This document shows, piece by piece, positions 755 to 39,919 of a DNA stretch of 64,000 bases (positions within the stretch are counted from its first letter, which is position 1; every line of letters begins with the position of its first letter). The notes below the pieces were generated by a model. That model made no database searches, was not told where the DNA came from, and saw nothing but the letters and a program-made list of their open reading frames with translations. Source of the stretch: a virus. Both the position numbers and the translations under genes were made by a program. The stretch is from the IMG/VR virus record IMGVR_UViG_3300021168_000001, positions 39,270 through 103,269 of that record, one strand, 5' to 3'.

Positions 755-1771
755 TTACTTCACCTCCGCTGTGATCTTTTTACCGTGGCGATTGTTGTAA
801 AACTCCTGGAGCTTCGTGATGTCGTCGCCGCCAGTCGCTCCACCACCGGCATCGGCTGCCCTCGCACGGCTCGCACCCGCGAAGCGCGCATATCCATTGC
901 CGCTTGTTGAGAATGAATTCCCACTCACGCGGCGCATCTGCGCGTTGAACGCCTTGATGAGCGCCGAATCACCGCTACGCGCGATCAGCGGCTTGATGGC
1001 GCGCAATGCTTCTCGGGCCGCGGCGTCGGCTGCCCTCGCGAACTCTGCCGTATCCCGCGCGCGCTTCTTGCGTGGATCACCACCCTTGGTTCGCTTATAG
1101 CCTTCAGAGCCGCGAATCGGATGGAAGTTTCCACCTTCCGAATAGCCCTCGACGTCATCGGCGCGCTTGCGATCGCCAGCGTGGACGACTTCAGGCTCAT
1201 CCTCTTCGTCGTACTCATCCTCATCGTCAGGATCGGCGTCGTCGCCCTCTGCGCCCTCTTCGGGAATCAGGTCAGGATTGTCGGCATCGCCGCTTTCTCC
1301 GCCTCCCTCACCTTCGTGCATCGGCTCGTGCTGTTCTTCCTGAAGGTAGTTGTCCATCAATTTGCGGAGCTCGGCGATATCGGCATCTTCGGACCGGCGA
1401 GACTTGGCGTCCATCATCTTGTCAAGTGCCGAATGCAGCCTTTCACGCTCTTCGTCAGGTTCACCATCGCCAGCCTTACGATCATCTGCGCGGCGGTCAT
1501 CGGAACGGCGACTATCGTCCGCTTTCCTGTCGTCGCTGCGGTGGCTATCGTCAGCGCGACGGTCATCGCTCTTTCGATCAGCGGCCTGCACAATTTTCGG
1601 CTCGGGTGGAATGTCCATCTGCGCTCCCTCATCGTTGGCTCGCGCGGTTCCGGTTCTGGTGACTTTGCTCAGCTCCAGAGCGGCATCGGCCAACGATTCA
1701 GGATCCACACTCTCATCTTTGGCCGCATGCTGCAGCCCGTGGCCAAAGATACTCTTAAGCGTGAGTTTCAT
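755..1771 (-). CDS. Possible nested scaffold product from internal start in DUF2213 gene
   Basis: Met232 of the DUF2213 frame (ATG at 1769-1771) is preceded on the minus strand by AGGAG, nine bases upstream, in a purine-rich stretch that reads Pro-Gln-Glu-Lys-Lys in the long frame. Starting there gives a 338-residue protein (MKLTLKSIFGHGLQH...) with only the charged, scaffold-like part. Nested scaffold genes inside head protease genes are well known (lambda C/Nu3). Seen: the site and frame. Inferred: that it is used. Confidence 0.45.
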   Translation of the reverse strand: MKLTLKSIFGHGLQHAAKDESVDPESLADAALELSKVTRTGTARANDEGAQMDIPPEPKIVQAADRKSDDRRADDSHRSDDRKADDSRRSDDRRADDRKAGDGEPDEERERLHSALDKMMDAKSRRSEDADIAELRKLMDNYLQEEQHEPMHEGEGGGESGDADNPDLIPEEGAEGDDADPDDEDEYDEEDEPEVVHAGDRKRADDVEGYSEGGNFHPIRGSEGYKRTKGGDPRKKRARDTAEFARAADAAAREALRAIKPLIARSGDSALIKAFNAQMRRVSGNSFSTSGNGYARFAGASRARAADAGGGATGGDDITKLQEFYNNRHGKKITAEVK

Positions 1772-2464
1772 CAGCTTTTTCTCCTGTGGTGGATCGTTCT
1801 TTGTTGACGTTGAGGTTGAGTTACTGGCTGGGGTTTGTGGCTCAGGCTCAACCGCAGCCTGTTCCTCAACCGTGGCCACTTCTGGAGCGGCATCCATAAT
1901 GCGTGCTTCGGGGCCCGCCCTACCCTTTGTAACCACGGCCACATGATTGCCGACCATGGAGACTTGGAGAACGACATCGCCATCGCGATCAATGCTGTAG
2001 TCGTAGCCGCACGATACTTCGCGTTTGCGATTCTTGAGAATCTCGGATATCAGGGGCTCCGCGGTAACAACCAGATCTCCGATGAGCGGCCACTCGCCAT
2101 CATCCAAAACGTCTTTACCTTTGCGAACGTTTTGCACATGGCCACGCGCCAGATCATTGAAGTTTTCTGGCGTCACGAATTCCATGTTTGGCGGGTGATT
2201 GTCGGTGACAGTGGCGGCTTCGAAGCTATGGATTGTGTCCGGATGAAATACCTCCTCCGGCGACCGATATAGACGCACCATCGCATTAGGATTTGAAGTG
2301 TCTATGCCGAGATCGTTGGCTCGCTCCTCGGGAAGCTCCGATACTTTGTAATCCTGAAATCCAGTTCTAGCTATTGTTACATCGTGGCAGACAATAGATC
2401 CGTTAGGCATCTGCGTGATGTTGTCGCTGAGCCGGCTTCCGAAGTACCCGATTCCTGTTTTCAT
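755..2464 (-). CDS. DUF2213 protein, probable prohead protease with scaffold-like C-terminus
   Basis: 569 residues. The first ~190 match the DUF2213 type (early GYFGSRLS, then HSFEAATVTDNHPP, EVSCGYDYSIDRDG and VGNHVAVVTKGRAG), a family found in head modules and thought to act in prohead maturation. Residues 295-333 are a run of RRSDDRKADD-like units, 395-440 are very acidic, and residues 342-353 (RLHSALDKMMDA) carry a motif that recurs in two neighbouring proteins. The low-complexity, charged C-terminal half resembles a scaffold. ATG 2464 directly follows the stop of the upstream gene. Protease activity is inferred from family; no catalytic residues were assigned. Confidence 0.75.
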   Translation of the reverse strand: MKTGIGYFGSRLSDNITQMPNGSIVCHDVTIARTGFQDYKVSELPEERANDLGIDTSNPNAMVRLYRSPEEVFHPDTIHSFEAATVTDNHPPNMEFVTPENFNDLARGHVQNVRKGKDVLDDGEWPLIGDLVVTAEPLISEILKNRKREVSCGYDYSIDRDGDVVLQVSMVGNHVAVVTKGRAGPEARIMDAAPEVATVEEQAAVEPEPQTPASNSTSTSTKNDPPQEKKLMKLTLKSIFGHGLQHAAKDESVDPESLADAALELSKVTRTGTARANDEGAQMDIPPEPKIVQAADRKSDDRRADDSHRSDDRKADDSRRSDDRRADDRKAGDGEPDEERERLHSALDKMMDAKSRRSEDADIAELRKLMDNYLQEEQHEPMHEGEGGGESGDADNPDLIPEEGAEGDDADPDDEDEYDEEDEPEVVHAGDRKRADDVEGYSEGGNFHPIRGSEGYKRTKGGDPRKKRARDTAEFARAADAAAREALRAIKPLIARSGDSALIKAFNAQMRRVSGNSFSTSGNGYARFAGASRARAADAGGGATGGDDITKLQEFYNNRHGKKITAEVK

Positions 2465-3567: not shown

Positions 3568-4017
3568 CTACTCAAGTCCTTTCCGGAAGTTCACGATCCA
3601 CGGTGCACCTAGCAGCTCCATGTGCGCCTTCATTGATACTTCGTTGTGTCCATGCACAGCTGCCGAAATGTGCTTCAGGCCGCGTGCCCGACATTCCTGT
3701 TCAAGCCGCTCGATCAATTTCCCATATAGACCGCGGCGCCGGTGGCGGAGGTCGGTCCATGCAAGGCCGATGAATGCACCATCACACCACTCCTGCCAAA
3801 TGATCATCGATATCGGCTCACCATCCTCATTGCGCATGAGGATCAGCGAATTGTCTTTTACGGGAAGATAGGAACCTCCGACATTTCCCATTTCGATCTT
3901 CAGGTCATGCGCTATGCCGTGGGCGATGCTGACACAGAATTCGAGGATGTTGGTATCCTCGATCGTTCCCATTACTTCGATCGTTTCGGTCACCGCGCGC
4001 ATAGGATTCCGAAGCAA
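3568..4017 (-). CDS. GNAT-family N-acetyltransferase
   Basis: 149 residues. The acetyl-CoA pyrophosphate-binding loop reads RHRRRGLYGKLIERLEQE (about residues 91-108), a variant of the Q/R-x-x-G-x-G/A motif, preceded by the strand GAFIGLAWTD and followed by LKHISAAVHGHNEVSMKAHM, as in motif B of GNAT folds. GNATs transfer acetyl groups from acetyl-CoA to amines; the substrate cannot be told. Met6 is an alternative start. It overlaps the next gene by about 28 bp. Phage GNATs sometimes modify host or virion proteins, but nothing here identifies a target. Confidence 0.75.
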   Translation of the reverse strand: MLRNPMRAVTETIEVMGTIEDTNILEFCVSIAHGIAHDLKIEMGNVGGSYLPVKDNSLILMRNEDGEPISMIIWQEWCDGAFIGLAWTDLRHRRRGLYGKLIERLEQECRARGLKHISAAVHGHNEVSMKAHMELLGAPWIVNFRKGLE

Positions 4018-4361
4018 TCGACGCGCACCAGGCCGCGTCCGGTTCCATCCTGCGGGTGCGGATCCCAGGCCATCTGTCCGTTCAATCCGACTACCGCATG
4101 CAAGTGCCCGCGTGGGCTCTTGCCCTCGATCGTGTGATACACGGGCCCATTCTTGAATGCCTGTTTCAACCCAGGCGAATCGATGTCAACCTGAATGTAA
4201 TAGAGGTTGAATTGCTTTAAAAAATCCTGAGTTTGACTTAGAAACAAATCGTCGGTAGCGAATTCAGGGACATCGGCTTCTTTTATTTCGAGGATCGATG
4301 CCAGACATGCCTGAAAACAGCGGCCATTTTTCCCGGTGCGGCTTTGCGTCTGTGGGATCAC
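3990..4361 (-). CDS. Papain-like small protein, possible cysteine peptidase
   Basis: 123 residues from GTG 4361, which overlaps the portal stop (GTGA). Near the N-terminus GKNGRCFQACLASILEI places a Cys ahead of a helix, and HLHAVVGLNGQMAWDPHPQDG supplies a His and an Asp, the arrangement of papain-like folds (NlpC/P60 or C39-type). A similar pattern occurs in many small phage and bacterial proteins of unknown function. Peptidase activity is inferred from pattern only. Confidence 0.45.
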   Translation of the reverse strand: MIPQTQSRTGKNGRCFQACLASILEIKEADVPEFATDDLFLSQTQDFLKQFNLYYIQVDIDSPGLKQAFKNGPVYHTIEGKSPRGHLHAVVGLNGQMAWDPHPQDGTGRGLVRVDCFGILCAR

Positions 4362-7300
4362 GCTTTCACCGCTCCGGCTGGTCTGTTGAGGTTTGCCGTC
4401 GCGAGCCAGTACTTGAAGTCATCGATTTGCATCGGCGAGATGTCCATCATCACTTCATCGGCACGGTGATGAGCTTTAGGATAGGCTCGTTTCACCTCGC
4501 CAAGCGTATCGAATCCCAGGAACACCTTGTGCTCATCGAATCCCTTAGAAGTATGCAGATGGCGCTGGTCAACGATATAAACCCAATCGCTCTCAGGGTC
4601 CGGCCCGATGTAACAATCGAGCGAATCACCATCGGCTCCGGTGAACCCTTCGATATATCCATAGTGTGCCGGCATCCGGACCGACCATCCTTTGCCCGAT
4701 CGAATATGGCCCTTGGGTGTCTCGACCACACACGTAAGACCATGAATGTTGAACTCCATCACGCCCGGGTCATCGGCGTCGGCGGCGCGCCCTGGCTCGT
4801 CCATTTCAAGCGGATCGAAGCCAAGCATGTCGATCACCGACCGCGGCGTGCGCTCGAGCTCTGCATCATCATCGACGTCGTCGAAGTCGCCTTCGTATTG
4901 GCGCCAGTCGTCATCGGTCCGCTGCGCCGATCCATAGTGCACTTCGGGCAATTCCACACCAAATGCCTTATCGAAGGCCTCTTTGAAGAAATTGAGTTTG
5001 GTATCTCCGGCCCTCGCCGGCTCGGCGCTGCCCTCGCTCGCAGATTTCCATCCCGAGAAGATCTGCGGAGGAATATAGGACTGCAACGCGACGATTGGTG
5101 TGTTGCCGAGTTTCTCGGAAACAGCCTTCGCAACCTCCATTACCGCTTTCTTGTACTCCTTCGGATTGGTCGGGGCTTTCACTTTCTCGACAAGGCCGTT
5201 CGCGGTCTCGGCCGCCAGCGCGGTGCGAAAGTCCTTTGTCTTGAAGCCGCCGTGATCGAGGTTGTCCTTCGTGAAGTCGCGCAGGCTCGCATCGCTCACG
5301 GACGGAAAGAGATTGCCTTTCTCACCGGCCTTGGCACGCAGCTCTTTCAGCATCGATCCAAGCTGTGCGTCCTCGACCGGCAACGATATAGTCACGCCCT
5401 TCTTCCCAACGAAGCGCAGTCGCACGCTGTTGCCAAGCTGCCATACATGATGCCCCTGCAAGGTCGACGCACCATAGGCCTTTACCGCGCCTCCCGTGTC
5501 CGAATCGCTGCCGGGCCGGATCCCAGTCTTGCGCACCAGGTACATGCAGTCGGCATGATCCCGTACCTTGGCGTCCTTACTCTTGCGGAAGCCGTCCAGC
5601 TGCTTGTCGATCAGGCTCATGTTCTTTTGCAGTGCCTGGACGCGCTGGAACTTCAGGTCCGCCTGGCTGTTCTTGAACGTAGGCGAGTAGACATATTGCT
5701 TGCGACCTTTCGAATCGAGACCGGTTGCCAACAGGTCGGCCTTTGGCATCGGCGAGATTCGAACATCCTTCCACGCTGGCGGGATCTTCAGCGACTTGGC
5801 ATGCTCCGGCCAGTCCTCGCGACTGGAGTAGGACTGAAGGTGCGCGGTCTTTGTCGATTCCTCGCCCCCCGAACCGCCAGTGCTTTCTTTATCGGGATCG
5901 CTGGACCCTTCGCCACCACCGGGCTCCTCACGCGGTCCCATGCCCTTCCGCCGACGCTCCCAGGCCTTCTTTGAAGCTTTTGAATCATCGGTCGCCCTAG
6001 CCACCGCAGATAGCGCTCGCTTCTCGGCGCGCTGCGGCCCGAACAGCTTCTGCATCGTCGCAAGGCGCTTGTCGTCCTGCTCCCCTTCAGGATCGCCGCC
6101 CGGCTCTTTGCCGCTCTCGCCCTTGCTCCCTTGTCCCTCTTCTTCTCCACCCTCGCCTGTAAGCGATTCAAGACCACCCTCGCCGCCGCCCTGCTCGCCC
6201 ATGCTCATGACGTCATCGGACAGAGCCGCGATCCGCTCATCGGTAAGATTCGTTCCGAAGCCAGTTGCGTCGGAGGCCTGCTTCACCTCTTCGGCGCCAG
6301 CCCGCGGCGACATGATGCCGAGGTTGATGGCGACCGCCACCGTATCAAGAGTGGCCTTGGCAAGCTCCGACTTTTCCTTTTCATCCAATACGCGGACGGA
6401 TGGGAAGTTGAGGTCCAGATCGTCGGGGATCTCACCGAGCTCCGACATGCAAAGCACCGGGTACAGTTTCTCGAGCTGTGGCCGCAGTTCAACGTCCTGG
6501 TCGGTGGCGATCTTCTCCTCGTAGATTCGCTCATCGGCATCGTTCGATTGCCCAAGTCCGCTGATCGTGCGCCCCCAAAGACGCGTGACCGGGATTTGTG
6601 TCGCACCTGAGATGTCCAACTGAAACTGCTGATAAACATCGCTGAGGCCGGTGAAGGTATAGTTCACGGCCTCGATCCCGCCATCGGCCGGAAGCGGCAC
6701 CAGGCTCTGGTTTGACAGCAAGTGGTTCAGGGTTGTCATGCGCTGCTGAAACTGTATCGCGGCTTGCTGGTTCATGCCGACGCCAGAAAGAACCTTTGCC
6801 AGTTCCGGAAACTTCATACCAAGAATGCAGGCGCGGAACGTGAGCGATAGTATGTTCCAACTCATGTTGTCGCGCTTGCGAATCTCTTCATAGGCCGGCT
6901 CGATCACCGATATGCCCCAGTAAGTCTGCGCCTCATACTCCGGCGTCGGCACCTCTGGCCCGCTGAAGCGCAGTATTCGCGACGAGTGCACTAGAAAACT
7001 CTCGGCATCCGGCGCAGTGACCCGGTACATCTCCGGCTTGTTGAAGTCGGTCGGCCGATTGATGTCCGTGCAGATATCGCCGTGCGGCTGAATGCCTGTC
7101 CAGCGATCGAACGGGATCAGGCCTTTGTAATCGCCGACGCCGATCGTGTCAGGATCCAGCGGCTCCTCGAGATTATCCTCTTGACCATCGATCACCATGA
7201 GTGCGCCGCCGCCCCCGAAAAGCCTCGCCCACTTCAGCGCACGGAGAAGCGTCGATTTGGTCTGCGTGCGGCGAATCTTGCGATCGATCTTTGTCAGATC

Positions 7301-7624
7301 TTCGGGAGGGATATCGCTCGTCAGCTTCGGCCAGGCCCTCACCATATCCTGCGCTGGCGTATCAACGATGCGCCGAGAAATCCAGTGGTTCCGATAGAGA
7401 GTTATCAGGAGCCAGTAGTTGAAGCTCAGCCTATCGAGTTCATACGTCGCTGCCTCGGCAAGATTTGGTGTGCCGTATCCCATGCGAGCCGGCACATTTG
7501 AAAAATAGTCGAATGCCTGCGCATCGAATCCTTGTCCGAAACCCATCCTCTGGAGCTGCGCCTGCCGCTCCATATCCGGATTGGTCCCAGCCCTGATCCT
7601 ACGGCGCTGCTGCAATTCAGGCAT
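4358..7624 (-). CDS. Portal protein fused to topoisomerase IB-like and pyrophosphatase-like domains
   Basis: 1088 residues. About 1-470 is a DUF1073-type phage portal (LARLFGGG region, SGPEVPTPEYEAQTYWG, TRLWGRTISGLGQSNDADER). About 470-600 is an acidic Gly/Glu linker with a SKKAWERRRK motif. About 602-862 resembles bacterial/poxviral type IB DNA topoisomerase: IPPAWKDVRISP, ATGLDSKGRKQYVYSP, GIRPGSDSDT...KAYGASTL (candidate Arg703), FVGKKG (Lys741/742), KTKDFRT (Arg800) and QSYIPPQIF (Tyr850), so the catalytic set appears intact. About 955-1070 (GADGDSLDCYIGP, DEHKVFLGFDT) resembles the InPase domain of phage polyvalent proteins. The portal forms the packaging vertex; the extra domains may ride with the DNA or act on it during packaging or entry. 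No stop or frameshift separates the parts. Confidence 0.85.
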   Translation of the reverse strand: MPELQQRRRIRAGTNPDMERQAQLQRMGFGQGFDAQAFDYFSNVPARMGYGTPNLAEAATYELDRLSFNYWLLITLYRNHWISRRIVDTPAQDMVRAWPKLTSDIPPEDLTKIDRKIRRTQTKSTLLRALKWARLFGGGGALMVIDGQEDNLEEPLDPDTIGVGDYKGLIPFDRWTGIQPHGDICTDINRPTDFNKPEMYRVTAPDAESFLVHSSRILRFSGPEVPTPEYEAQTYWGISVIEPAYEEIRKRDNMSWNILSLTFRACILGMKFPELAKVLSGVGMNQQAAIQFQQRMTTLNHLLSNQSLVPLPADGGIEAVNYTFTGLSDVYQQFQLDISGATQIPVTRLWGRTISGLGQSNDADERIYEEKIATDQDVELRPQLEKLYPVLCMSELGEIPDDLDLNFPSVRVLDEKEKSELAKATLDTVAVAINLGIMSPRAGAEEVKQASDATGFGTNLTDERIAALSDDVMSMGEQGGGEGGLESLTGEGGEEEGQGSKGESGKEPGGDPEGEQDDKRLATMQKLFGPQRAEKRALSAVARATDDSKASKKAWERRRKGMGPREEPGGGEGSSDPDKESTGGSGGEESTKTAHLQSYSSREDWPEHAKSLKIPPAWKDVRISPMPKADLLATGLDSKGRKQYVYSPTFKNSQADLKFQRVQALQKNMSLIDKQLDGFRKSKDAKVRDHADCMYLVRKTGIRPGSDSDTGGAVKAYGASTLQGHHVWQLGNSVRLRFVGKKGVTISLPVEDAQLGSMLKELRAKAGEKGNLFPSVSDASLRDFTKDNLDHGGFKTKDFRTALAAETANGLVEKVKAPTNPKEYKKAVMEVAKAVSEKLGNTPIVALQSYIPPQIFSGWKSASEGSAEPARAGDTKLNFFKEAFDKAFGVELPEVHYGSAQRTDDDWRQYEGDFDDVDDDAELERTPRSVIDMLGFDPLEMDEPGRAADADDPGVMEFNIHGLTCVVETPKGHIRSGKGWSVRMPAHYGYIEGFTGADGDSLDCYIGPDPESDWVYIVDQRHLHTSKGFDEHKVFLGFDTLGEVKRAYPKAHHRADEVMMDISPMQIDDFKYWLATANLNRPAGAVKA

Positions 7625-9410: not shown

Positions 9411-9778
9411 TGCGGCCTTGTCACGGCTGGCGCGTCAGCTGGATATTGTGCGTTCTCAAGCCTCTGCACTTTCGGAATTACATAGGAGTCCTGAGTCTGC
9501 GATACCTGCTGCAATTGAGACCGCATCGAGAGCACCTGTTCAACAAGATCACGCTGCCTCTGCGAGTCGTTCATTACCGATGCACGCACGGCCAACTCGA
9601 GGCGCCCCAGACGCTGGTCGATCTCTTCATCATGCCTCTCGTGCTCGAGAATCTGCCTGAGCGCCTGTGTCTGCCGGTCATCGGCATATTTATTTATCTT
9701 CGCCAGACCGCCAAAGATCGATCCGACAATCGTTAGAGCCGTGGCCACCGTCGCGAGAGTGATGTGTTTCGGCGTCAT
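9407..9778 (-). CDS. Small membrane protein with coiled-coil, possible holin or spanin-like
   Basis: 123 residues from ATG 9778, whose TGA/ATG overlap with the minor head gene decides the start; the longer frame has a charged, unlikely extension. One transmembrane helix lies near the N-terminus (residues ~7-23, ITLATVATALTIVGSIFGG), followed by a long predicted coiled-coil rich in Gln, Arg and Glu (DDRQTQALRQILEHERHDEE onward). One-TM-plus-coil proteins include tail-associated and lysis proteins; no specific family was recognised. Confidence 0.55.
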   Translation of the reverse strand: MTPKHITLATVATALTIVGSIFGGLAKINKYADDRQTQALRQILEHERHDEEIDQRLGRLELAVRASVMNDSQRQRDLVEQVLSMRSQLQQVSQTQDSYVIPKVQRLENAQYPADAPAVTRPQ

Positions 9779-10623
9779 GCCGCTGTGCGCTCCTTCATCC
9801 CGCTCAGGTTCCTGAAAGCGATTCGAGTCATGCTCATGATCCGGCCGTTCCGATGAACGCGGTGTGGCCATTTCACATCATCGAGTGTGAGCAGCGGAGA
9901 TTGAGGACAACGACAATTTGGAAAAGTTCCTCCGTGCCCACGTCCCAATGTGCTTTTCTCTCCAATTAAAGCCTCTGGCGATGGCGGGTCATCATAGAAC
10001 ACGATCACACCTTCCATATTTTTATGACTCGGCCTCACCCTCGTATCTTCCGACGTCAACCATTCGTAGCACGGTAGCCCGAGATGCTCGGCGCGCGCCT
10101 GCGTGAGAGCCGCGCTTGCCTTCATCGTTTCGGTCCGCGCGATCAGATTAATCCTGGTTCGCGTGAGTTGCGGAAACCGGTGTCGCATCATCTTGGCGAT
10201 CGCTTCCGGCCGGGCCCCTGCCTGCTGCGCCTCCGCGATCTCGCCCGTCAACTGCTGAGCGACCTTTCGCGGAATACTCGAGATATAGGCCGCATTCTCA
10301 TCAACTATCCTGCGAAGTGCAATCCCGACCGGCCCGGCCATTTCCCGCTGCAGGAGCCGATGTAACATTGAGCTCCGTTGCGCCCGCGTCGCCGCTTCAC
10401 GCCAGGTTCTCGCGTTCAGCACGTTGACCCACCGGCCCATCTCGCCGGCGACATAGGCTGCGGCATCAGCAACGTCTCGCCGCTCGCTCACCGCCGCCAG
10501 TTCTGCAATCCACTGCTCGAAGCTTACATCCGGCTTGCGTTGGGGGATGCTCGACAACATGAGTCTGCGGATCAGCCGCTGATACTCGAGTTCGATCCGT
10601 CGCGTAACCGTAAAGTCACTCAT
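9775..10623 (-). CDS. Mu F-like minor head protein
   Basis: 282 residues. The C-terminal half has the hallmark of the phage Mu gpF/SPP1 gp7 family (PF04233): INLIARTETMKASAALTQAR, YEWLTSEDTRVRPSHKNMEG and a late FPNCRCP with the conserved His/Cys arrangement. These proteins bind the portal inside the head and in some phages travel with the DNA. The gene is coupled by ATGA to genes on both sides. Confidence 0.85.
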   Translation of the reverse strand: MSDFTVTRRIELEYQRLIRRLMLSSIPQRKPDVSFEQWIAELAAVSERRDVADAAAYVAGEMGRWVNVLNARTWREAATRAQRSSMLHRLLQREMAGPVGIALRRIVDENAAYISSIPRKVAQQLTGEIAEAQQAGARPEAIAKMMRHRFPQLTRTRINLIARTETMKASAALTQARAEHLGLPCYEWLTSEDTRVRPSHKNMEGVIVFYDDPPSPEALIGEKSTLGRGHGGTFPNCRCPQSPLLTLDDVKWPHRVHRNGRIMSMTRIAFRNLSGMKERTAA

Positions 10624-12645: not shown

Positions 12646-13259
12646 GGCAAGCTCTTGTAGCCGATCCCGCTGAACTCCACACTATAGGCGCCGGCAACCG
12701 ATGCAATGCACAGCTGCAGCTGCGTCACAATTGTGTTCGGAGCCCATCCGTGATTCTGTGCCGGGATCGCCGGCATCGCGATAGGCTTGCCATTCGCGCT
12801 GGCGAACCTGATGTTTTTGTTCACATAATCGAATCCATACCGAATTGCTACACCGTTCTCGATGTCAATCTCCAGCGGAATCGGTACGCCTGTGTTGACC
12901 CAAGGATTGTTGATCTGCGTCATCCACCCGTTGGCAACATTGAACTGAAAACTTCCATCGTAGGTGAATCCAGATGCGTCGGTGAACTTGCTGTCCATCT
13001 CGATGACCTGCGCATACTGGATGTCGTCGCCGAACTTTACCGTACAGCCGAACTCGACACTCGCCGAAGGGTTGAGCCACTGGCTCGTGCATTTCCCCAA
13101 TGCGCCTGAATCGGGCTGACCATCGCAAACGATCACCAGGCCGCTTGCAGTTTTCTCTACCGCAAAGCCGGTCGGCTGCTTCGGGTTGATTGTCGGGTCC
13201 CACTCTGGCGTCCACAGTCCATCACGTTCCAGATTAGTAATCTGCCAGGAATAACTCAC
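12642..13259 (-). CDS. Beta-sandwich-like protein, unknown (possible carbohydrate binding)
   Basis: 205 residues, all-beta composition: WTPEWDPTINPKQPTGFAV, FGCTVKFGDDIQYAQVIEM and a conserved-looking C-terminus (AYSVEFSGIGYKSLP). No signal peptide. The pattern resembles concanavalin-like lectin or glycanase sandwiches, but no catalytic motif is evident. ATGA overlap with the HNH gene upstream; convergent with the small operon 11356-12645. May be a tail or adsorption accessory protein. Confidence 0.5.
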   Translation of the reverse strand: MSYSWQITNLERDGLWTPEWDPTINPKQPTGFAVEKTASGLVIVCDGQPDSGALGKCTSQWLNPSASVEFGCTVKFGDDIQYAQVIEMDSKFTDASGFTYDGSFQFNVANGWMTQINNPWVNTGVPIPLEIDIENGVAIRYGFDYVNKNIRFASANGKPIAMPAIPAQNHGWAPNTIVTQLQLCIASVAGAYSVEFSGIGYKSLP

Positions 13260-13930
13260 TCCATCCTCCGATAAAGAACGCCTCGTTCAATCTCCCAATA
13301 CCGGTTTCCCTTGCGAGAATTGCACGGTTTACACGCGCCGACGACGTTCGCCCTTGTATGCTGTCCTTCCTTGGAAAGAGGCACAACATGGTCCATGGTC
13401 AATTCACACTCAATTCCGCACCACCAACAGCAACTACGCTGTTCAGCGATAATCGCAATCCACTGGCAGGGAGTTAAATCCCCTCTCCGTGAAGCAGCCC
13501 TCCTTTTGTGTCCACGGCTTCTGTTGATTGCCTTGTAAAGATCAGGCTTTTTCGCCATCGATCGCCTGACATAAACCTTGCATTTTTCCTTATTGTCCCT
13601 CGCCCACCTTACGGCGCGGGCGATTGCGATAGCGGCCTCTTTACGATAGCTCAATTTTTTGCTGCATCTTGTCGAGCAAGTCCGAGCTTCAGGATGGAAA
13701 GTGGAAGGTACGAATACATTGCCGCAAATCTCGCAATTCTTGGCAGAATGCTCTTGGTAGCCTATTTTCTTTCGATTCCATGATCTTTTCAGGCAATTTT
13801 TGCTGCAATATGTTTTTCTTGGACATTTCTGCGGTACCTCGAAATTGACATCGCAGGCCGCGCATTTACGCGTTCTGGATTTGGTCCCAGATCTTTTCAA
13901 TTCCTCCGCTTGCAAGCTGCCGGACTTCAT
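13256..13930 (-). CDS. HNH endonuclease with zinc fingers
   Basis: 224 residues from ATG 13930 (MKSGSLQAEELKRSG), which has GGAG 10-12 bases upstream; it overlaps the end of the endolysin by ~65 bp, and no later ATG exists. Three CxxC-type knuckles (KCAACDVNF, NCEICGNVF, WWCGIEC) precede the HNH core ELTMDHVVPLSKEGQHTRAN followed by CKPCNSRKGN. Likely a free-standing homing-type nuclease sitting between endolysin and the beta-sandwich gene. Confidence 0.8.
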   Translation of the reverse strand: MKSGSLQAEELKRSGTKSRTRKCAACDVNFEVPQKCPRKTYCSKNCLKRSWNRKKIGYQEHSAKNCEICGNVFVPSTFHPEARTCSTRCSKKLSYRKEAAIAIARAVRWARDNKEKCKVYVRRSMAKKPDLYKAINRSRGHKRRAASRRGDLTPCQWIAIIAEQRSCCWWCGIECELTMDHVVPLSKEGQHTRANVVGACKPCNSRKGNRYWEIERGVLYRRME

Positions 13931-14372
13931 CGTTAGGCTCCGCCACCGGGAACTGACCATTCATCTGAAAATGATCATAATCCTTGAAGTGTTCCCATAG
14001 GGCACCGCATTGCAATCCAAGCGAAGAAGCTACAGTAACCATCCGAATGTAGGAACTGGTTAGACTCTTTCCACCGTTACTTTCTACTGCTTTCCAGTCT
14101 GGCTGCCATGGATCTAATCCGATCACACCTGGTACTAAATCCACGGCGAGGCCGAAATTGTGCCAAGAAAATCCGCCACGTACATTTGTGACGATGGACC
14201 CTGGTGCGGTCCGGCCCTTCGCGTAGAGCTCATCCTGTTCGGCCACCGTGCGAAGGCCAGCAGTCACACGAATGTAGATGTCCTCGGCAGCAAGCATCGA
14301 GGCCATCTGACGAACCTTGTCCGCGAGGCCCGGGTAGAGATCCGCGAGCCTCGCTTCGGAAACTTCATCCAT
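13866..14372 (-). CDS. Endolysin, M15 family peptidase
   Basis: 168 residues. RVTAGLRTVAEQDELYAKGR, SWHNFGLAVDLVP and DYDHFQM form the M15 zinc-peptidase signature: His and Asp in SxHxxGxAxD and a final His in DHF. Enzymes of this type (L-Ala-D-Glu or D-Ala-D-Ala peptidases) cut the peptide stem of peptidoglycan and serve as phage endolysins. No cell-wall-binding domain or signal peptide is visible, so release would need a holin. TAATG coupling to the upstream gene. Confidence 0.85.
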   Translation of the reverse strand: MDEVSEARLADLYPGLADKVRQMASMLAAEDIYIRVTAGLRTVAEQDELYAKGRTAPGSIVTNVRGGFSWHNFGLAVDLVPGVIGLDPWQPDWKAVESNGGKSLTSSYIRMVTVASSLGLQCGALWEHFKDYDHFQMNGQFPVAEPNDEVRQLASGGIEKIWDQIQNA

Positions 14373-18787: not shown

Positions 18788-20122
18788 TCACGCCGCCAAG
18801 AGTCGATAATCCGAAAACACTTCTTCAACCCCGTACCGCAGCGCATCGCACCCATGGTCGTTCGTTTTTATCGGTGCCTCTTCGCCGCGCTTAATCGCGT
18901 CCGGATCCCACATATACGACGGCAGTTCGCGAATCAGCTCTTCGCATTCGGCACTGATCCGAATCCGTCTTTGAGTAAGCACGCTCGAGGTCTTGCGGAT
19001 CCCATCGAGCACATCGTTGTTGGCATCCACTACCCAGAGATTTGCAGCTGACAACTCATTGCGAAAGCTGGCGGCCGAAGGATCGAGAACGATGCGCGGC
19101 TGGCTGCGCCGTTGCACGCGCGATACACTCACAATGCCGGCTGTGTTCTTGTAGCCGTCTGGACTAAGCCAGCAAACGATGTCGTCTTTGTACTGCGAGT
19201 CTGTCTTTTGACGCATCTCCTTCGCGGAGTCCCACCAATACTGACGATCGATCCAAAGCGTCTTGCCGTCGTCAATTGCCTCGAGCGCCGTGCACGGGTT
19301 GGCCGTGCCATAGTCCATGAAGACGATGTGGTCGACATAACCGCCAAATCCATAGAGCCCTGGCCCGATCTCTTCAGGGTGGTAAATCAGATCGGATGAC
19401 CAGGCACTGCCATAGATTGCGCCTTCGGCTGCGACCCATCGGCCGAGAATGTAACGCAGAAAGAAGACGCCGCTTTGCGAAGCTTTGATCGTTCGCTTTG
19501 AATTCGGGTCCAGGTTCGGATTGTCGTCCAGCGTGAACTCGATGTGCGTTAGGTCCGGCTTGAAGCTTTTGCCATCGATGACTTCGGTCTTCAGGTAGTG
19601 CGTCGGCGGGCCCGGGTTTGTGGTTCCGTAGAACCGCGATCCTTTTGGCGAAAGCCGCTGCATCAGAACAAAGAAGAAGGACCGCGGCCACTCGATCACC
19701 TCATCCCCGATCGCAACACCAATCGTCATTCCCAGAATGTTCGTGTATGACGCCTCATCGTTGGCGCCAATCACGAACCATTGAACTCCGGCGCCGTTCT
19801 CACCCAGAAACAGCCAGAGCTCACCGGTTGACTGATTGTAGGAGTACTTGTCTTTACCGATGATTTCGAACAGGTCGATGAGAATGTTCTTGTGAACCTT
19901 GCCCTTCGACTTGCCGATAATGACGCGCCGGCCCTCCACCTTGTATCGGCAGAGGTGAAGAATCACCTTCGCTGTAACGGCCCAGGTCTTGGCGGACCGG
20001 ACGGACCCGACAAGAATGTTGTACTTTCTGTCGAGCTCGGGCGGGTGCATGATGAACGCGTGCGCCTTGCGTCCGAACTGTTTAACTTTTTGTACAGGAG
20101 CAATCGACGTCCCGGTTGCCAA
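18788..20122 (-). CDS. terL: Terminase large subunit
   Basis: 444 residues, usual length. ATPase domain: NILVGSVRSAKTWAVTAKV (Walker A-like, GSxRSxKT), GVAIGDEVIEWP (Walker B), FYGTTNPGPPTH (coupling motif). Nuclease domain: HIVFMDYGTANPC, RIVLDPSAASF and KTNDHGCDALRYGVE with the conserved acidic residues of the RNase H-like fold. It pumps DNA into the prohead through the portal and cuts concatemers. The type resembles PBSX/Terminase_3-6 enzymes. Confidence 0.93.
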   Translation of the reverse strand: MATGTSIAPVQKVKQFGRKAHAFIMHPPELDRKYNILVGSVRSAKTWAVTAKVILHLCRYKVEGRRVIIGKSKGKVHKNILIDLFEIIGKDKYSYNQSTGELWLFLGENGAGVQWFVIGANDEASYTNILGMTIGVAIGDEVIEWPRSFFFVLMQRLSPKGSRFYGTTNPGPPTHYLKTEVIDGKSFKPDLTHIEFTLDDNPNLDPNSKRTIKASQSGVFFLRYILGRWVAAEGAIYGSAWSSDLIYHPEEIGPGLYGFGGYVDHIVFMDYGTANPCTALEAIDDGKTLWIDRQYWWDSAKEMRQKTDSQYKDDIVCWLSPDGYKNTAGIVSVSRVQRRSQPRIVLDPSAASFRNELSAANLWVVDANNDVLDGIRKTSSVLTQRRIRISAECEELIRELPSYMWDPDAIKRGEEAPIKTNDHGCDALRYGVEEVFSDYRLLAA

Positions 20123-39200: not shown

Positions 39201-39919
39201 AACGATTCTACACAGATCGACTCGTGAAGCGCTTATTCGGCGGCTACGATCACTGCGTATGCGGTGAAGGTGATTGCCCTTTTCACATCGCCTATTGCGC
39301 CTGTGGCTGCGAGGAACCGGTAAATTATCGACGCAATGGAACTCCAAATATTTGGGTGCGTGGCCATGAACGGCGCGCCAAACGATGGACAGATGAACGT
39401 CGGCAAAGCTTTTCTGCGAAAAAGAAAGGTTGCCGCGGAATCTGGAAGGGCAAGACACTGCCCGAGTCTGCCCGCGAGAACATGCGCAAGGCTCGTGTTG
39501 GAATGACGCTGTCGCCTGAACATCGACACAATATTGGTCTCAGCATCACCGGTCGCAAATTCTCAGAAGCGACTCTGGATAAATTACGCGCTCACCGCCA
39601 TACGCCAGAGACAATCGCAAAGATGAAAGGCCGCACCGGATCACGCTGCCCAGCATGGAAAGGTGGAATTTCCTCCATCAATAACGCACTTCGCAACTCA
39701 ACGGAAGCGCGCCAGTGGAAACGAGAAGTGTTTCGTCGCGATAACTTCACCTGCCAGGATTGTGGTGCGAAAAGCTCTCGCGGCCACAAGGTCCACATCC
39801 AGGCTCACCATTTGCAAAGTTGGTCAGAGTTTCCAGCACTTCGCTTTGAAGTGAGCAACGGTCTCACGCTCTGCCATCTCTGCCATGGCATTCGACACGG
39901 GCGCAAATTGCGTCCATAA
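39197..39919 (+). CDS. HNH endonuclease with NUMOD3 repeats
   Basis: 240 residues. Cys-rich N-terminus (CVCGEGDCPFHIAYCACGCE), then NUMOD3-like segments (LSPEHRHNIGLSITGRKFSE, KLRAHRHTPETIAKMKGRTG), then the HNH core (NFTCQDCGAKSSRGHKVHIQ, AHHLQSWSEFP, LCHLCHGIRHG). A homing-type nuclease. Confidence 0.85.
   Translation: MKRFYTDRLVKRLFGGYDHCVCGEGDCPFHIAYCACGCEEPVNYRRNGTPNIWVRGHERRAKRWTDERRQSFSAKKKGCRGIWKGKTLPESARENMRKARVGMTLSPEHRHNIGLSITGRKFSEATLDKLRAHRHTPETIAKMKGRTGSRCPAWKGGISSINNALRNSTEARQWKREVFRRDNFTCQDCGAKSSRGHKVHIQAHHLQSWSEFPALRFEVSNGLTLCHLCHGIRHGRKLRP

Follow-up and report, generated by a model that had tools for sequence, protein, structure and literature searches.

The window analysed here, a 64,000-nt stretch of viral DNA corresponding to positions 39,270 to 103,269 of IMG/VR record IMGVR_UViG_3300021168_000001, contained an open reading frame (ORF) that joined a phage portal, a type IB topoisomerase (TopIB), a short acidic peptide and a polyvalent-type inorganic pyrophosphatase (InPase) in one chain (Table 1). 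An earlier note, made from the letters alone, had described an uninterrupted 1088-residue frame with a DUF1073 portal, a TopIB-like region and an InPase-type polyvalent domain; the frame was borne out and lies on the minus strand. A plus-strand reading of the same segment meets 8 stops and was rejected. The domain composition was recovered by Pfam profiles, with all calls exceeding the curated cut-offs. Phage_portal_3/DUF1073 matched residues 73–430 (2.6e-93, 354 of 357 profile positions), Top1B_N_bact (PF21338) residues 610–637 (3.7e-9), Topoisom_I (PF01028) residues 649–845 (2.5e-19), and the InPase profile residues 957–1074. The portal also matched PHROG_146 (1.5e-103), and the PDB sequence neighbours of the fusion were a Pbunavirus portal (9b41, for portal and InPase), the Pam3 portal (8hds), and Deinococcus TopIB. 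The InPase domain was homologous to the C-terminal domain of 9b41 and possessed a putative metal-site motif, DGDSLD, spotted by eye. In the full-length AlphaFold2 (AF2) model, the predicted local distance difference test score (pLDDT) was mostly 70 to 95 for the portal domain, while no useful model was obtained past residue 867, because the alignment was thin there. The portal gene lay in a head-packaging cluster, with protease, MuF and terminase genes nearby on the same strand. As read from these profiles, the product fits a polyvalent virion protein, carrying several enzymatic modules on the portal of a terminase-portal phage.

Table 1. Features of the fused gene and of neighbouring head genes in the window
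Feature	Position	Strand	Remarks
Whole fused ORF, portal - TopIB - acidic peptide - InPase	4358..7624	minus	1088 aa + stop (4358-4360), uninterrupted
Portal domain DUF1073/PF06381, ordered part ~residues 61-470	6215..7444	minus	Pfam, PHROG, PDB portals, AF2
Flexible linker, residues 474-587, low-complexity, Gly/Glu/Ser/Lys-rich	5864..6205	minus	AF2 pLDDT <50
TopIB domain, residues 599-861, net charge +16	5042..5830	minus	PF01028 + PF21338, AF2, Foldseek
Catalytic Arg703 codon	5516..5518	minus	78/78 conserved; aligns with TopIB active site
Catalytic Lys741 codon	5402..5404	minus	78/78 conserved
Catalytic Arg800 codon	5225..5227	minus	78/78 conserved
Catalytic Asn841 codon (His in poxvirus enzymes)	5102..5104	minus	77/77 aligned
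Nucleophile Tyr850 codon	5075..5077	minus	76/76 aligned
Acidic partner peptide (residues 889-943), in-frame part of the ORF, net charge -15	4796..4960	minus	Separate overlapping ORF in relatives
InPase domain (polyvalent-type inorganic pyrophosphatase), residues 957-1077	4394..4756	minus	PF18823 3.8e-33
Head maturation protease DUF2213, which might process the fusion	755..2464	minus	PF09979 3.8e-39; PHROG head maturation protease
MuF-like head morphogenesis protein	9775..10623	minus	PHROG_324 1.4e-48
Terminase large subunit	18788..20122	minus	PHROG_2 4e-34

The middle domain was modelled separately with AF2 (residues 599–861, 66-member alignment), giving a pLDDT of 92.8. Structure prediction recovered the TopIB catalytic fold on which the earlier note had staked its reading: the first 22 Foldseek matches in the PDB were all TopIBs, recombinases came after them with E >1e-3, and this ranking led to rejection of a tyrosine recombinase or integrase identity in favour of the two-lobe TopIB fold. 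The variola topoisomerase bound to DNA (2h7f) was superposed with a template modelling (TM) score of 0.82 and 3.2 Å. Active-site positions were assigned by alignment to 2f4q and 2h7f, and their conservation was scored on 78 distinct phage TopIB domains, the gaps at N841 and Y850 arising only from contig ends. Arg703, Arg800 and Tyr850, named earlier as candidates, were all confirmed in this way; of the pair Lys741/Lys742, only Lys741 was conserved, Lys742 being variable among the 78 domains and hence not a catalytic residue, and Asn841 had been missed. Judged from sequence and model, the middle domain is a genuine TopIB with an apparently intact active site, and it would be expected to relax DNA. 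It was present in single copy on the 103-kb IMG/VR record, possibly a fragment, on which gyrase-B-type and type IA topoisomerases were not found.

Relatives were collected by scanning IMG/VR with TopIB alignments; the two scans confirmed 173 and 135 stretches, and the 80 best of each were carried forward. Once duplicates had been removed, 107 distinct TopIB ORFs remained, a few of them comparators from cells, jumbo phages and isolates. Distinct loci were told apart by TopIB sequence alone, and architecture classes were assigned with profiles built in this analysis. About 100 distinct relatives were found, all from uncultured (metagenomic) phages. Among the 107 ORFs, 25 were PF06381 portal-TopIB fusions, 5 had the order portal-InPase-TopIB and one, that of the window, the order portal-TopIB-InPase, which was not seen elsewhere among the loci compared; HK97-, lambda-, Mu- and PHROG_2662-type portals fused to TopIB together accounted for 5. 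Further architectures included NUDIX-TopIB (n=5), MuF fusions (n=7) and an ADP-ribosyltransferase (ART) fusion (n=1). That other portal classes, MuF and the head-maturation protease serve as fusion partners was confirmed with Pfam and PHROG scans, and at least five portal families carry TopIB (PF06381, Portal_Mu, lambda-type, HK97-type, and PHROG_113/2662). In some loci TopIB was unfused and stood as its own gene within the head cluster. At 89 of 99 TopIB loci, the fetched stretch included at least one gene for a portal, MuF, protease or terminase. An assembly or frameshift artefact was rejected, since portal-TopIB fusions recur in many independent contigs and the in-frame linker of the window protein is absent from split relatives. 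At L063:2298-5303, TopIB was fused to the ART (ADPrib_exo_Tox) domain in a phage head neighbourhood. A 281-kb jumbo-phage contig, L240, encoded two TopIBs, both on the reverse strand: one of the head clade, with its acidic peptide, and a second of jumbo type (564 aa). A NAD-dependent ligase-like ORF separated them.

No head-protein-TopIB fusion was present in 50,697 phage records, in which the window domain gave one weak stand-alone match and another query a few divergent jumbo-phage TopIBs. Because the head-clade family was not found among isolate phage records, it marks a gap in cultured phage diversity. A viral structure library yielded jumbo-phage and giant-virus or poxvirus TopIBs and no named portal, some of its matches being nameless; a genome contig search gave only three matches, and a plasmid search only cellular-type TopIB. 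A search of the accessible literature found no account of portal-topoisomerase fusions.

Directly after the TopIB, a short conserved ORF was observed, which was absent from the earlier note. In the sampled stretch it had a mean of 54 residues and a mean net charge of -13, that of the TopIB domain being +12. Its consensus was PDVHFG.......DWR....D.DPDDEEL..TP.DVIAMLGFDP, and it had no match in Pfam or PHROGs. With a profile, the peptide was found within 1.2 kb downstream of the TopIB at 92 of 99 loci; of the seven others, three have fewer than 400 bases left on the contig, and two (L019 and L021) possess a divergent acidic MGFDP peptide recognized by eye. A reciprocal, peptide-only search with an independent query located TopIB within 1.2 kb upstream in 67 of 70 loci, many of them on contigs shared with the TopIB scans and so not an independent sample. 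The start of the peptide usually overlapped the TopIB stop, the commonest offsets being ATGA and a 7-base shift, and a ribosome-site-like motif stood at the right distance in 62 of 80 peptide ORFs against a 16% background, a proportion inflated by the choice of the best candidate start. In three loci (L044, L058 and L074) the peptide was adjacent to TopIB on the opposite strand, in convergent orientation. A programmed frameshift producing a TopIB-peptide protein was not favoured, as the peptide ORF in most loci begins at a start codon of its own behind a ribosome-site motif and in three lies on the other strand. The peptide was fused in frame behind TopIB in five loci, the window among them, and in about thirty it continued into further sequence, at times an identifiable module (InPase, NUDIX or a zincin-like HExxH protein, for example). 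ORFs with the peptide and an HExxH motif (e.g., WRHEYGHAID), possibly zincins, were seen at L016:6336-7916, L068, L084, L093, L156 and L168. Because of the conserved adjacency, the in-frame fusion and the opposite charge, the simplest reading would be that the peptide physically binds TopIB; it probably does so, acting as a DNA-mimic inhibitor or as a docking tag.

A joint motif, HPRD..GKF.SGGG and variants, preceded TopIB in 71 of 92 cases versus 22 of 1646 control windows; the pattern was widened after inspection, raising the count from 54/92 to 71/92, which is hence post hoc, and the background was about 1.3% under both versions. The fuller form F.E.(D/E)HPRD..GKF.SGGG, with the variants NPDEPRDE.GRWT and NPNHDP.TGRFTSAGG, occurred both upstream of TopIB and between other modules, in loci L009, L016, L027, L032, L050, L083, L168 and others. 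In phage head proteins of several domains, it might serve as a protease site or as a tag for capsid targeting.

Phage TopIBs formed one clade apart from cellular and jumbo-phage TopIBs (Shimodaira-Hasegawa-like approximate likelihood ratio test, SH-aLRT, 97) in a tree made by quick search, with long outgroup branches and without bootstraps. The PF06381-portal fusion required 16 changes on this tree versus 27 with shuffled labels, and at least five of the 16 were forced by starred branches. On this evidence, the association of TopIB with its carrier is evolutionarily fluid. Portals 61–65% identical to that of the window possessed InPase and lacked TopIB. The portal-TopIB fusion was kept in the close relatives L027, L028 and L029, where its absence would have spoken against the earlier proposal; in L027 and L028, the nearest, it was followed by a separate overlapping ORF of acidic peptide plus InPase. 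In the window these two ORFs were joined, the TopIB-InPase junction being a new in-frame linker of about 30 residues that the split relatives lack. At L210 (~3820-4160), an L009-type portal lacked TopIB together with the peptide's first half, and the joint HPRADDG led directly into DNDEELKETPASVIALLGFDP; this looks like a natural TopIB deletion in which the joint and the peptide end were kept.

From the domain identities, fold, catalytic residues, recurrent fusion to head proteins and conserved peptide linkage computed here, we infer, with a probability of roughly 0.55, that the product of the gene is a portal subunit to which TopIB, acidic peptide and InPase are flexibly tethered as a cargo delivered with the genome. 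The C-terminal extension of the portal barrel would lie inside the head, so that up to twelve cargo copies might be packaged beside the DNA, with TopIB and InPase held next to it by the disordered linker (residues 474–587). TopIB would then be released, possibly with the aid of a protease; in the Pa193 portal, which shares the InPase tail, residues 529–765 are without density, i.e., the tail is mobile or removed (PMC11042391). The enzyme might enter the cell with the genome, or act on DNA at the moment of ejection, and removal of torsional stress from the incoming genome without ATP would allow early transcription, circularisation or replication to proceed. Bound to TopIB, the acidic peptide would either keep the enzyme off the DNA while the particle is assembled or serve to attach the module that follows (InPase, NUDIX or zincin). 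InPase-portal and MuF-effector fusions have likewise been argued to be packaged and injected (Iyer et al. 2017, PMC5512222). More generally, these findings suggest that the enzyme is widespread, is carried in the head and may be delivered by phages along with their DNA. A bolder proposal, which we regard as tentative and short of even odds, is that uncultured tailed phages, a large group of them, possess a dedicated head-borne TopIB, grafted repeatedly on unrelated portal and head proteins and gated by a dedicated acidic DNA-mimic protein of ~54 residues that is fused to it here; if true, phages would have their own equivalent of the poxvirus virion topoisomerase, with the off switch built in.

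The earlier note had placed the enzyme at the packaging vertex, where it would relieve torsion, or alternatively on DNA after entry. In the former case TopIB would stay on the portal crown as a swivel, nicking and resealing the passing DNA to relieve torsion from the motor or the packed coil. The portal fusion is indeed the commonest arrangement (31 PF06381 ORFs plus 5 of other profiled portal classes among the 107), and the portal C-terminus can be taken from portal structures, including the Pa193 barrel, to face the head interior. However, a portal-only function is weakened by the presence of the same TopIB on MuF, on the maturation protease, on NUDIX or as a separate gene of the head cluster, by the portals 61–65% identical that lack it, and by the apparent loss at L210. 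Packaging-vertex relief is thus possible and unlikely, and action after entry fits better. Since TopIB moves between portal, MuF and protease carriers by way of the recurring joint motif, and what the family has in common is its place among the head genes and not on the portal, the enzyme is better read as head-carried cargo delivered with the genome than as a portal-specific swivel. Slightly less likely again is a host-directed effector, in which injected TopIB would relax or nick host DNA, or counter a topology-sensing defence, as one interchangeable weapon with ART, NUDIX and InPase. Exchange with NUDIX and fusion with ART (L063) and MuF, which are usual effector carriers, agree with this, as does the polyvalent-protein theme (Iyer et al. 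2017, PMC5512222), and in that case the role of the acidic peptide would be like that of an immunity protein; but no TopIB is known to be a toxin, relaxation of the ordinary kind would be mild in cells with gyrase, and no defence target is known.

Several observations weigh against delivery with the genome as cargo. The head-clade members are metagenomic only; no proteolytic site was identified, and the window protein is without a clear copy of the joint motif; and the crown might lack room for two large extensions on each portal subunit if these are not processed. In addition, on the jumbo-phage contig L060/L240 the neighbours of the TopIB-peptide pair are a DNA ligase and a second TopIB and not head genes, because of which a replication role is possible in some lineages. 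As a general explanation, a replication or recombination enzyme (junction resolution, nick sealing or genome circularisation) merely riding on structural genes is improbable: the NAD-type ligase-like ORF on that contig and the description of standalone jumbo-phage TopIB among DNA topology functions (PMC7824862) point to it, against which stand the head gene neighbourhoods of 89 of the 99 loci and the repeated fusion to late structural proteins. Accessory domains are frequent on portal and MuF proteins (Iyer et al. 2017, PMC5512222), and the window domain could in principle be a catalytically dead relic or a DNA-binding domain only holding DNA at the portal; with five catalytic residues essentially invariant over a very diverse set, this can hardly be credited.

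Known systems resemble the delivered, head-carried TopIB proposed here in part. InPase-portal fusions such as Pbunavirus portals (Pa193 gp19, PDB 9b41) have in common the C-terminal InPase on the portal and the placement of modules on portal or MuF; the Pa193 portal lacks TopIB, and InPase-portal systems have no acidic partner, unlike the window. Packaging and injection were also proposed by Iyer et al. (2017, PMC5512222), whose inventory is without a topoisomerase, the word occurring in the references only. Stand-alone jumbo-phage TopIBs are known (PMC7824862); those of Motura, Lu11, PaBG and RSL1 (PHROG_23460) share the fold of the window domain, but are 25–29% identical over the aligned part, show no head-protein fusion in the records seen, and are separate from the window clade in the tree (SH-aLRT 97, long branches). 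Poxviruses and mimiviruses also have TopIB (PMC3493329), with the same fold (variola 2h7f, TM 0.82) and catalytic set, but these enzymes are about 22% identical, not fused to structural proteins and from eukaryotic viruses, the recruitment being independent. The Deinococcus radiodurans TopIB (2f4q/3m4a) shares the bacterial-type N-terminal domain and catalytic core at 28% identity, but is a cellular stand-alone enzyme, and cellular TopIBs fell in the outgroup of the tree. Poxviruses carry TopIB in the virion, and the role proposed for the window enzyme resembles that proposed for the poxvirus virion topoisomerase. To our knowledge, whether phages bring along enzymes to manage DNA topology across packaging, ejection and entry is a largely untested question. 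What is new here is the recurrent fusion of TopIB to phage head proteins together with an acidic partner family; a portal-tethered TopIB, on unrelated portals and almost always paired with a conserved acidic protein, makes the topology question testable with two small proteins. If the peptide binds and blocks TopIB, it would be a new natural inhibitor of the enzyme class to which human TOP1, a target of drugs, belongs.

Other genes of the window included one for a GNAT acetyltransferase, located between the portal fusion and the head-maturation protease (3568-4017, minus strand), and HNH/endonuclease VII-like and endolysin genes inside the head/tail module (13256-14372, minus strand).

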